Assembly (NCBI RefSeq): GCF_014698235.1
Contig: NZ_JACJSP010000001.1
Span: 1-64,000, forward strand
DNA: 64,000 nt
From: Limnothrix sp. FACHB-406
Lineage (GTDB): Bacteria > Cyanobacteriota > Cyanobacteriia > CACIAM-69d
Reading direction: 5' to 3'
Below the pieces are notes generated by a model. It was given only the letters and a program-made list of their open reading frames with translations, was not told the origin of the DNA and searched no databases. Numbering within the stretch: position 1 is the first letter of the stretch; each line of letters starts with the position of its first letter. The position numbers were made by a program, and so were the translations under genes. This document shows, in pieces, positions 56,626 through 59,453 of this stretch.

Positions 56626-58314
56626 CTAGGGCGCTTTGGGGGGTGATTGATCGAGCGCTTGAATGACCCAAGTGTTGTTAAAGGGTTCGATCGCCTGGAT
56701 TTGGTAGCGGGGATTGGTTTTGAGCCGATCGAGCCATTCTGTTTTGGGCCGATAGGCGATCGCCCGCTGAATGGTTTCAGGAAGGGGCAGATCGGGTTCC
56801 TCTAGGTAAATCAGTTGGGCTTGGGACGGCAGGCGACGGGCCAGGGTGAGCAACCGCAGAGCATTGCCGCTGATCACCACGGGTGGCTGCAGCTCACTCA
56901 CCCGCTGGGCGATCGCCGGATCGTCGTAACTGCTGTATTTGTTCCACCAAGTGGGAGCCATCACGCCTTGGCTACTGGACCACAGCCCCACCACCCACAA
57001 CAGGGCGATCGCCCCCGCAGCCCAAGGCCGCCGCCGTTGGTTAGCCCAAGCTTCGCTGAGGCCAAAGGCCAGCACCCAGGTGAGGGCCAAGTAGGCCGGA
57101 AGGAAGTAGCGGGCAATGGTCGATCGCTGGCCGCCATCCACCGCATCCAACAGGGCAAAGGGCAGGGCGATCGCGCCAGTCAACAGGGGAAACAGCCAAA
57201 TATCCGGCGGCGTGACCCGCAGCAAGCGCCGGATGCTGAGTGCAACCATCGCCAGCAACAACCCGATCGGGAGCCAGTGCCAGGACAGGGTGATCGGGTC
57301 GGTTTCCTGGGTGATGTCAAACAGGGGCCGATCGAAACAGGCTTGCCAATCCAGGGCGATCGCGCTGAAATTCAGGCCCCAACGCTGCACCAAGGTTCCC
57401 CAAGTCAGCTCCCGATCGATCCAACCCATGGGTTTTCGATAGGTCAGCCAACAAACCAGCCAGGGACTGAACAGCACCAGCGCCCCCAGCAGGGAACCAC
57501 CCCAGGCTAGAAGGTTATGGCGCAAGGCATTCCAACCCCGGTGCGATCGCTCCAGCCATCCCCGCAGGGCCACGTAGGCTCCTTGGGCAGCAATCCCAAG
57601 GGCCAAGGGCAAATGACCATAGAAATTGCAGGCCACCAAGACTCCGTAGGTCATCCAGGCCGATCGGGTGGGTTTGCCCAAGCGATCGAGCCGCAGAGCA
57701 CGCAACAGGGCCCAACTGGCCAACAAAAACAACACCACCGCCAAACTGTAGCCCCGGGCTTCGCGGGCATAGACCACTTGGATCGGGGAAACGGCCACCA
57801 GACCGATCGCCAAACCAATCACCGATCGGGCCCTGGGCCAATCGGCTAACCAAGCCTGCCCAAACAGAACTAAAGCCGGAAACACCAGCAGACTCACCAG
57901 GGCAGAAAAGGCCCGAATCGCCGCTACCGAGTCCCCTGCCAAATGCGTCCAGCCCCGCAGCAACAGGTAATAGAGCGGCACTTGGTCGGGGGTTTCGGTG
58001 GCCAGGCTGTGGAGCGTCGCCAGCCAAGGATGATCGCCCGATCGCTGCAAGGGAACTAAATCAGCGGGGAAAACGGGCCGCCCTTGGGGCTGGAAAAAGT
58101 CCTCCACTTGCTCCTTGGTATAACCCGCAATGCGCACGGAGGTGATGGTTTCGTCGTACCAGTAAACCGCGCGATCGAGGGCCGAAAACCGCAACAGCAC
58201 CGCCACCACCAGAACGAACCCAAGCACCCAACCCGATCGGCCCGGCCCAGATCCGCCGGGCCAAAAACCGCCTAAATTCCCAAATCGGCTCGATCGCTTC
58301 GGGGAGCTGCTCAT
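56626..58314 (-). CDS. GT-C family membrane glycosyltransferase (GT39/PMT_2-like)
   Basis: A 562-residue membrane protein with about 11 helices. After the first helix, AVYWYDETITSVRIAGY carries the acidic D-E pair (residues 54-55) that is catalytic in GT-C enzymes. Other typical parts are DQVPLYYLLLRGWTHLAGDS and FSALVSLLVFPALVLFGQAW. The C-terminal 100 residues are soluble. GT-C enzymes use lipid-phosphate-linked sugars and act on the outer face of the membrane; the acceptor is unknown. The start ATG overlaps the stop of the zinc-ribbon-GUN4 gene in an ATGA (58311-58314), so the two are translationally coupled. Confidence 0.88.
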   Translation of the reverse strand: MSSSPKRSSRFGNLGGFWPGGSGPGRSGWVLGFVLVVAVLLRFSALDRAVYWYDETITSVRIAGYTKEQVEDFFQPQGRPVFPADLVPLQRSGDHPWLATLHSLATETPDQVPLYYLLLRGWTHLAGDSVAAIRAFSALVSLLVFPALVLFGQAWLADWPRARSVIGLAIGLVAVSPIQVVYAREARGYSLAVVLFLLASWALLRALRLDRLGKPTRSAWMTYGVLVACNFYGHLPLALGIAAQGAYVALRGWLERSHRGWNALRHNLLAWGGSLLGALVLFSPWLVCWLTYRKPMGWIDRELTWGTLVQRWGLNFSAIALDWQACFDRPLFDITQETDPITLSWHWLPIGLLLAMVALSIRRLLRVTPPDIWLFPLLTGAIALPFALLDAVDGGQRSTIARYFLPAYLALTWVLAFGLSEAWANQRRRPWAAGAIALLWVVGLWSSSQGVMAPTWWNKYSSYDDPAIAQRVSELQPPVVISGNALRLLTLARRLPSQAQLIYLEEPDLPLPETIQRAIAYRPKTEWLDRLKTNPRYQIQAIEPFNNTWVIQALDQSPPKAP

Positions 58315-59453
58315 GGGTTCACATCCCGATCGCGGGCAATCTCAGCGGCGGCATCCGGCAAATCATCGAAATCCTCAGGGAGATCATCATCGGGAACATC
58401 ATCCGCTGGCAATCTCAACCCATGCTCCTGGTCATCATTCATGAATCGATCCTCCTCGACGGCCGACCAATCGGCCGGGGGCCAGTGAAGCGCCAAATAG
58501 GGTACATCCCAAGAGTCTTGGCGCGATCGCCCCGCTGCAAAGTTGCGCCCCGTCTCCGCACCGGGGTAGGGCAAATGACCCACCGGGGCCGACAGGTCAA
58601 AAATGAGGGAATCGTAAGGAATCAGTTCCACCACCCGATCGGGCGCAGTGCCCCGAAACCGTTGCCACCAGAGGGCCAGCCGTTGCCAGTCATCCTGGGC
58701 CACCGCATCGGGATCAAACAGGGTCACTTGCCAGCCCACATAGTCCGCCAACTGCTCATAAACCTCTGGATCCCAGTCTCCCGGCTGCCCGCCCAATTCT
58801 GTCCACAGGGCCGCTTGAATGCTCCAGCCAAATTGCCCGCGACTGTAGGTCACCCACAGCTCATCAATCTGTTGCAGTTCCGCCGTGGGTAATTCCAGAA
58901 AGGAGCATTGGGCGGCAAAGTAACGCACTAGCCGATCGGTTTCCCGATCGGCCGATCGCCAATCTCCCACTTTCAATGCTTCAAACAAATCCTGATACAA
59001 ATCTTGGCGGGCAAACCCGCCCCTTGCTTCCGCACAAATCCGATGGGCTTCGCCTCGGCGGGCAATATCTTCGTAGATCAGCAGGCCATCTCGTTCAACG
59101 TTGTGGATCCAATCCTCACAGCCGGTCAGCTCTGGTGCAAAGGCATGGCCACAAAATTTACAGGCCTGGTGATCCAGAGGCGCACCACAGTTGGGGCAAT
59201 GTTCCAAGGACGCATCCAGGGCCAAGGCTCCACAACTGCCACAGGGGCGCGGGGCTAATTGCACCTGAGCCAAGCAATCTTCATGAAAGAAGCGCTGCAA
59301 CTGGGGTAAATAAACCACCGCCGAGGGGGCGATCGGCTGCTGACAAACCGCACAGGGCAATCCCAAATAGTCGATCGCCCCGCAATGGGGACAGGCCGCC
59401 GCCCCCAAGGGCACTGCTCCGCCACAGTCCAGGCAGGTGGATAACTCAGCCAT
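58311..59453 (-). CDS. Zinc-ribbon protein with GUN4 domain
   Basis: A 380-residue protein from ATG 59453, preceded by AGGAG. Residues 1-113 hold successive Cys pairs: CLDCGG/CPHCG, CAVCQQ, CGSCG/CPNCG, CKFCGH/C (zinc ribbons). Residues about 152-285 match GUN4: LYQDLFEALKVGDWRSADRE, LPTAELQQIDELWVTYSRGQFGWSIQAALW. The family core is F-x-C-x-D-L-x-x-I-D-x-L-W-V-x-Y-S-x-G-R-F-G-F. The tail is very acidic (DDVPDDDLPEDFDDLPDA). GUN4 binds Mg-chelatase substrates and products; GUN4 domains also occur fused to other domains in cyanobacteria, where their ligand is unclear. It is coupled with the downstream glycosyltransferase. Confidence 0.85.
   Translation of the reverse strand: MAELSTCLDCGGAVPLGAAACPHCGAIDYLGLPCAVCQQPIAPSAVVYLPQLQRFFHEDCLAQVQLAPRPCGSCGALALDASLEHCPNCGAPLDHQACKFCGHAFAPELTGCEDWIHNVERDGLLIYEDIARRGEAHRICAEARGGFARQDLYQDLFEALKVGDWRSADRETDRLVRYFAAQCSFLELPTAELQQIDELWVTYSRGQFGWSIQAALWTELGGQPGDWDPEVYEQLADYVGWQVTLFDPDAVAQDDWQRLALWWQRFRGTAPDRVVELIPYDSLIFDLSAPVGHLPYPGAETGRNFAAGRSRQDSWDVPYLALHWPPADWSAVEEDRFMNDDQEHGLRLPADDVPDDDLPEDFDDLPDAAAEIARDRDVNP

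Follow-up and report, generated by a model that had tools for sequence, protein, structure and literature searches.

A GUN4 paralog with a putative zinc array, encoded beside a predicted GT-C-type glycosyltransferase in Limnothrix and its order

Background

What does a GUN4 domain do when it is joined to an array of putative zinc sites and encoded directly upstream of a membrane glycosyltransferase? The question is raised by two genes of Limnothrix sp. FACHB-406 (Cyanobacteriota; class Cyanobacteriia; order CACIAM-69d) on the minus strand of a 64,000-nucleotide stretch (assembly GCF_014698235.1, contig NZ_JACJSP010000001.1, positions 1 to 64,000), which as a whole is called the window here. 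A preliminary description of this DNA noted the pair, held that the chlorophyll role of GUN4 does not explain it, and suggested a tetrapyrrole-sensing or scaffold protein linked to glycan export.

GUN4 domains fused to signalling modules have already been published (PMC7159879, PMC2176072, PMC10156173; all papers given by PMC number are cited from their available portions), and those joined to kinases, caspases, trypsin and TIR have been interpreted as tetrapyrrole sensors (PMC7159879), so the architecture described here is a variant on a known theme. In the available portion of PMC7159879, 'GUN4 domain' and 'zinc ribbon' occur in separate contexts, and a search of titles and abstracts, which covered neither most subscription papers nor bioRxiv, found none on a zinc-array GUN4 protein or on a GUN4/glycosyltransferase pair. 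Cyanobacterial GUN4 domains are often not chlorophyll GUN4, as is the case for eight of the nine matches in the window genome, and their roles are largely obscure. Because it combines a conserved, specific gene partner with a clear set of replaced pocket residues, this pair is a small, testable case for asking whether a GUN4 domain works without tetrapyrrole and regulates a neighbouring enzyme. Here we describe the pair, its distribution among sequenced genomes of the class, and evidence which suggests that an unusual GUN4 relative with likely zinc sites, beside a sugar-transfer enzyme, acts as a regulator or scaffold outside chlorophyll synthesis.

Results

Gene pair and junction

Comparisons were made with a class sample of 388 genomes, six of them from the window's order (G000, G019, G036, G050, G064 and G075); G000 is the window genome, other G numbers are other genomes of the class, and L numbers are loci taken from these genomes. 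Both genes are real, and their parts lie as follows, with the basis of each assignment in brackets.

58311..59453, minus strand: gene of the zinc-array GUN4 paralog, 380 amino acids (Pfam GUN4, 74.7 bits; dN/dS 0.069 against G019)
59016..59453, minus strand: putative zinc array, residues 1-146 (invariant Cys/His; Pfam DZR over its cut-off; full match only in the order's six genomes among 388)
58488..59015, minus strand: predicted GUN4 domain with a conserved C-terminal GRN...DSWDVP stretch, about residues 147-322 (Pfam, model, structure matches)
58548..58568, minus strand: YPGAETG, residues 296-302, counterpart of LLNQLRG 209-215 of Synechocystis GUN4 (alignment)
58311..58463, minus strand: acidic C-terminal tail, residues 331-380, and stop codon (G000 and G019 only)
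58311..58314, minus strand: ATGA shared by the stop of the GUN4 gene and the start of the GT-C gene (sequence reading)
56626..58314, minus strand: gene of the predicted GT-C-type (PMT/ArnT-like) membrane glycosyltransferase, 562 amino acids (10 hydrophobic segments, D54-E55, relatives, tree)

The junction is as the preliminary description had it: the coding strand reads ...GTGAACCCATGAGCAGC, and the TGA stop of the GUN4 gene and the ATG start of the glycosyltransferase gene share ATGA. The GUN4 gene begins with ATG, with AGGAG 5 nucleotides (nt) upstream. Ratios of non-synonymous to synonymous substitution rates (dN/dS) were estimated by the Nei-Gojobori method (NG86, own script) for G000 against G019 and against G050. 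Against G019 the ratio is low for both the GUN4 gene, as listed above, and the GT-C gene (0.124), which argues that the pair is not a product of chance; against G050 the ratios are 0.121 and 0.252, at dS values of 1.55 and 0.99 that are saturated or nearly so. The GUN4 gene is under purifying selection. Among its parts compared with G019, with few changes in each, the zinc part has the lowest ratio (0.037; 2 non-synonymous and 15 synonymous differences), followed by the GUN4 part (0.077) and the tail (0.18).

Distribution and conservation of the pair

The full-length zinc-GUN4 protein is present in all six genomes of the order and, among the matches listed (a list cut off at weak hits, with at most five candidates scored per genome), in none of the 382 other genomes of the class. 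Some match to the protein occurs at E <= 1e-10 in 124 of the 388 genomes; outside the order, no listed match begins before residue 95. Neither CxxC nor HxxC was seen in the five earliest-starting of these (residues 95-141; G188, at 95, with G328, G205, G066 and G232), the motif reading having covered those that start before residue 142 and left five more, at 144-146, outside it.

A GT-C partner lies within about 1.7 kb of the GUN4 gene in five of these six gene-bearing genomes and directly adjoins it in four, so the linkage seen in the window holds in most genomes that carry the gene. The two genes overlap by 4 nt in G000 and G019, are separated by 10 nt in G064 and 11 nt in G075, and stand about 1.6-1.7 kb apart in G050, depending on the GT-C start. 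The DNA between the G050 genes is rich in repeats (63 matches within G050, itself counted) and has inverted ends, as would be expected if an insertion had split the pair.

The pairing outlasts its surroundings. When six flanking genes of the window were sought at L051-L054 (17-18 kb around the GUN4 gene of G050, G036, G064 and G075), 0 of 24 possible matches were found, and the GT-C gene was found at three of these four loci. In a tree of 40 sequences the five linked GT-C proteins form one clade (bootstrap/Shimodaira-Hasegawa-like approximate likelihood ratio test 100/98, recovered in each of 200 bootstrap trees) that excludes the ten other GT-C rows from the order; the tree leaves out other GT-C proteins of G019 and G050, has a fragment as its G075 row, and places some long branches uncertainly. 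An earlier quick tree also recovers the clade. The pairing is older than the genus, having arisen before at least two genera diverged, and because it also survived changes of the flanking genes, a functional link is favoured. G338, which has the closest GT-C protein outside the order, was considered as a second linked case and rejected, its GUN4 and zinc-protein matches lying on another contig.

Two side observations concern these loci. The intergenic segment of G050 (L051:7190-8783) has inverted end copies, 90% over 58 nt, and parts of it recur dozens of times in G050 and also in G019 and G000, mostly at lower identity there; these repeats are possibly a MITE-like (miniature inverted-repeat transposable element) family in Limnothrix. 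L053:10869-14633 (minus strand) holds three related genes in tandem, of 391-399 amino acids and with a GFSGGxDxF-like (PP-loop-like) motif, and L054 has at least two; one of the three L053 genes was scanned against Pfam and had no match at E <= 0.1.

GUN4 domain and its pocket

Pfam GUN4 (PF05419) matches residues 150-300, far above its cut-off of 29.2 bits, and the profile matches all six orthologs at E <= 0.1 (best 2.4e-27). No NCBIfam family is over its cut-off in this protein, and GUN4_N has no match at E <= 1 in the Pfam scan. An AlphaFold2 model of residues 141-338, built from 31 domain rows (six orthologs plus 25 taken from 33 other prepared domains), has a mean pLDDT confidence score of 84. 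With this model Foldseek gave a best E of 6.8e-6, to 1z3y, at modest TM-scores (0.47-0.56), and VIA-align gave Z 15.3-16.4 over 126-134 residues for GUN4 structures (top 4xkc, Z 16.4) and Z 3.8 for the best non-GUN4 entry; only GUN4 structures match strongly. The modelling thus indicates that the zinc-array protein keeps the GUN4 fold. An APxGHLP-like core is retained in the orthologs, one of which reads GQFP. Compared with chlorophyll GUN4, the protein has a longer VGW-FDL segment, modelled partly as helix; a few other GUN4 paralogs also carry insertions there.

Whether the Gun4 pocket residues are kept has a clear answer for the three that can be named, none of which is. In the alignment with the Synechocystis chain, the window protein has Leu283 in place of Phe196, Gly298 in place of Asn211 and Thr301 in place of Arg214. 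The first two replacements, Leu and Gly, are uniform across the six orthologs; the third place holds Thr in five of them and Ala in the sixth. L001, the chlorophyll-type Gun4 of the same genome, has Phe, Asn and Arg there. The LxNxLR bilin motif is accordingly replaced by YPGAET. Among 31 aligned rows, 30 had a readable GHLP-like motif after which the places could be counted; the rows from outside the window genome are those most similar to the window protein, an uneven sample. Asn occurs in three (L001, L006, L034) and Arg in three (L001, L015, L023), and since L001 alone has both, residues of known importance are lacking in nearly all the paralogs compared. By its pocket residues the window protein belongs with the GUN4 paralogs.

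Of nine GUN4 matches in the window genome, eight exceed the cut-off (L001, the NACHT protein L004, the kinase L006, the single-ribbon protein L003, the others L002, L005 and L008, and the window protein) and one falls below it. L001 matches GUN4 at 209.8 bits and GUN4_N at 36.9 bits and carries TTNQLR, so that a separate Gun4 is encoded elsewhere in the genome and the preliminary description was right that the chlorophyll role does not explain the window protein. Two observations on these relatives stand on their own. The kinase-GUN4 protein L006 (G000:C16:59060-59440) has an N-terminal Cys-rich stretch and keeps Asn at the bilin place (SRNWVG). L003 (G000:C4:186683-187066 and an upstream part), L047 and L048 make up a second zinc-GUN4 subfamily in the order, in which a single ribbon at the N-terminus is connected to a GUN4 domain at the C-terminus by a long linker that looks helical.

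Putative zinc array

Where the preliminary description spoke of several zinc ribbons, several putative sites are there, but the label is imprecise. Sixteen Cys/His residues are invariant in the alignment of all six orthologs (C7/C10/C21/C24, C34/C37/H57/C60, C71/C74/C86/C89 and C98/C101/H137/C140) and can be parsed as CxxC...CxxC ribbons and CxxC...HxxC sites in alternation, two of each. The resulting succession of four zinc sites would be C4, C3H, C4, C3H, probably by duplication of a unit. The Pfam double zinc ribbon (DZR, PF12773) matches residues 7-44 at 28.4 bits (cut-off 27.3). The invariance of all 16, together with the lowest dN/dS of the gene, points to real metal sites.

A profile of residues 1-146, searched against the 388 genomes with about ten candidates scored per genome, has full-length matches in six, the six of the order, and partial matches at E <= 0.001 in seven others. 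The proteins of five partial-match loci (L090, L091, L092, L094 and L095) were read by eye, L093 and L096 lying outside this reading. L090 appears to join a ribbon and a CxxC...HxxC unit to transmembrane segments, and L091 and L092 a ribbon to ankyrin-like repeats. The 261-residue G318 protein at L095:871-1656 (minus strand) has a similar zinc array, no GUN4 domain and another C-terminal part, which we take to be CFI-box-like. L094, considered as a related zinc protein, is ion-channel-like and looks unrelated. The zinc unit looks modular, and its occurrence with other C-terminal parts (ankyrin-like, transmembrane, CFI-box-like) is what would be expected of an adaptor.

Glycosyltransferase

The downstream protein is, judged by its relatives, an enzyme of the PMT/ArnT-type GT-C class. 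It has no Pfam or NCBIfam family over cut-off, PMT_2 not being among its Pfam matches, and the linked GT-C of L053 likewise lacks a PMT_2 match, its best being TMEM260-like and below cut-off. The assignment comes through L058 and L060, which are 32-33% identical to it over about 530 residues and pass PMT_2 at 31.5 and 46.4 bits (cut-off 26.1), and through ten hydrophobic segments in a simple hydropathy scan, the first of which (28-46) is followed by D54-E55, presumably the outward-facing acidic motif of GT-C enzymes. The glycosyltransferase label of the preliminary description is upheld by this indirect route and not by a direct Pfam match. An enzyme of the PMT/ArnT type would transfer sugars at the outer side of the membrane rather than carry out the glycan export that had been suggested.

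Acidic tail

The acidic tail noted in the preliminary description exists in the window protein (19 D/E against 4 K/R in residues 331-380). It is shared with the 97-98%-identical G019 protein and missing from the other four orthologs, and as a part not conserved (two of six) it was rejected as functional.

Discussion

We tentatively favour, with a confidence that falls somewhat short of even, a zinc-array adaptor or regulator with a repurposed GUN4 domain, co-expressed with the GT-C enzyme and probably acting on it. On this view the GUN4 paralog would be cytosolic and its partner a membrane glycosyltransferase, and a single transcript would probably yield both at coupled levels. The zinc array may serve as a docking arm for protein (or nucleic acid) in place of the ARM-like N-terminal domain of chlorophyll GUN4. 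The GUN4 domain, its predicted fold kept and its pocket rebuilt, would be a protein-binding or altered-ligand module and, because of that rebuilding, not a bilin sensor. The adaptor could then control how active the GT-C enzyme is or how it is assembled, and that enzyme may transfer a lipid-carried sugar onto an envelope acceptor.

Several points weigh against this interpretation. In a full-length structure prediction from the six orthologs, which was set aside for its poor pLDDT (47.9), the zinc-array blocks score about 30-60 and are unreliable. G036 has no GT-C of the linked clade near its GUN4 gene or among its listed matches (three of eight candidates scored), and its two listed GT-C rows fall outside that clade in the tree. 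A Trypco1 gene (L052:8210-8596, minus strand; 48.3 bits against a cut-off of 24.6) lies on the same strand 107 nt downstream of the G036 zinc-GUN4 gene; since the GUN4 gene persists there with Trypco1 and no GT-C beside it, the GT-C is not an obligate partner. The GT-C frame of G075 is interrupted, perhaps by an assembly error (730 contigs) or by decay of the gene. All evidence of linkage comes from one small order of six genomes.

The G036 arrangement would also suit a different account, in which the GUN4 protein would act as an all-purpose zinc adaptor, for instance in a conflict- or defence-type network, and merely share a transcript with the GT-C gene. The Trypco1 domain takes its name from conflict systems (PMC7159879), the window genome has GUN4 paralogs within NACHT and kinase proteins, and GT-C-like proteins are common without this GUN4 gene, being found in 184 of the 388 genomes at E <= 1e-30; of 26 GT-C loci (L058-L083), the G075 pair L059 is the single one with a GUN4-protein match in its stored flanks. 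Yet five genomes from two genera have orthologous GT-C partners despite differing flanking genes, and Trypco1 was seen in one genome only, where about 9 kb of open frames were read by eye and no search was aimed at a nearby trypsin gene. We consider a bystander pairing rather unlikely, and G036, a single case, would still allow a GUN4 adaptor with different partners.

The pocket residues bear on the remaining accounts. A domain that binds porphyrin (not bilin) and uses the zinc array to signal photosynthetic status to the GT-C would agree with the retained fold and APxGHLP-like core and with the general interpretation of multidomain GUN4 proteins as tetrapyrrole sensors (PMC7159879). In Chlamydomonas GUN4 the Asn-to-Gly change by itself abolished bilin binding and kept porphyrin binding (PMC10156173), so the replaced pocket could still allow the latter. 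However, Phe196 and Arg214, whose places hold Leu and Thr/Ala in all six orthologs, have Arabidopsis equivalents that contribute to porphyrin binding, mutation of which lowers affinity (PMC8967248); LxNxLR is lost, and of the 30 readable rows only the chlorophyll-type L001 has both Asn and Arg. In the paralog clade of PMC10156173, as given in its available portion, no member retains the Asn equivalent. Bilin binding by the window protein is unlikely and porphyrin binding doubtful; the sensing role proposed earlier is weakened though the predicted fold stands, and we judge a tetrapyrrole sensor unlikely here. A chlorophyll-pathway GUN4 working with magnesium chelatase, which domain homology alone would suggest, is very improbable: L001 already occupies that place in the genome, and the window protein has neither a GUN4_N match nor the pocket residues and was not found in the 382 other genomes of the class.

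A bolder form of the adaptor interpretation, in which one order has re-used the GUN4 fold as a non-pigment, zinc-dependent switch directly controlling a membrane glycosyltransferase, strikes us as a long shot. If true, the switch would respond, for example, to redox or metals through its 16 Cys/His, and envelope glycosylation would be tied to the redox or metal status of the cell.

Set beside known systems, the window protein shares with chlorophyll GUN4 (Synechocystis; 1y6i, 4xkc, 7e2t) the predicted fold over 130-134 residues, 32% identity and an FDLSAPxGHLP-like core, and differs in having no GUN4_N match, three replaced pocket counterparts, a longer VGW-FDL segment, a putative N-terminal zinc array and an adjoining GT-C gene. 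Like the multidomain GUN4 paralogs with kinase, NACHT, caspase, TIR or trypsin parts, which mostly lack LxNxLR, it carries the GUN4 module at its C-terminus; unlike them it joins this module to the zinc array alone, with no enzyme domain, the enzyme encoded next to it being a distinct membrane protein, the GT-C. The single-ribbon proteins L003, L047 and L048 have an N-terminal CxxC...CxxC and a C-terminal GUN4 domain in the same order, but one ribbon and a long linker where the window protein has four putative sites. The partner, in turn, has the multi-pass form and the acidic pair after the first segment in common with PMT/ArnT-type GT-C enzymes (Pfam PMT_2), and is set apart by lying under all Pfam cut-offs and by its linkage to a GUN4 gene.

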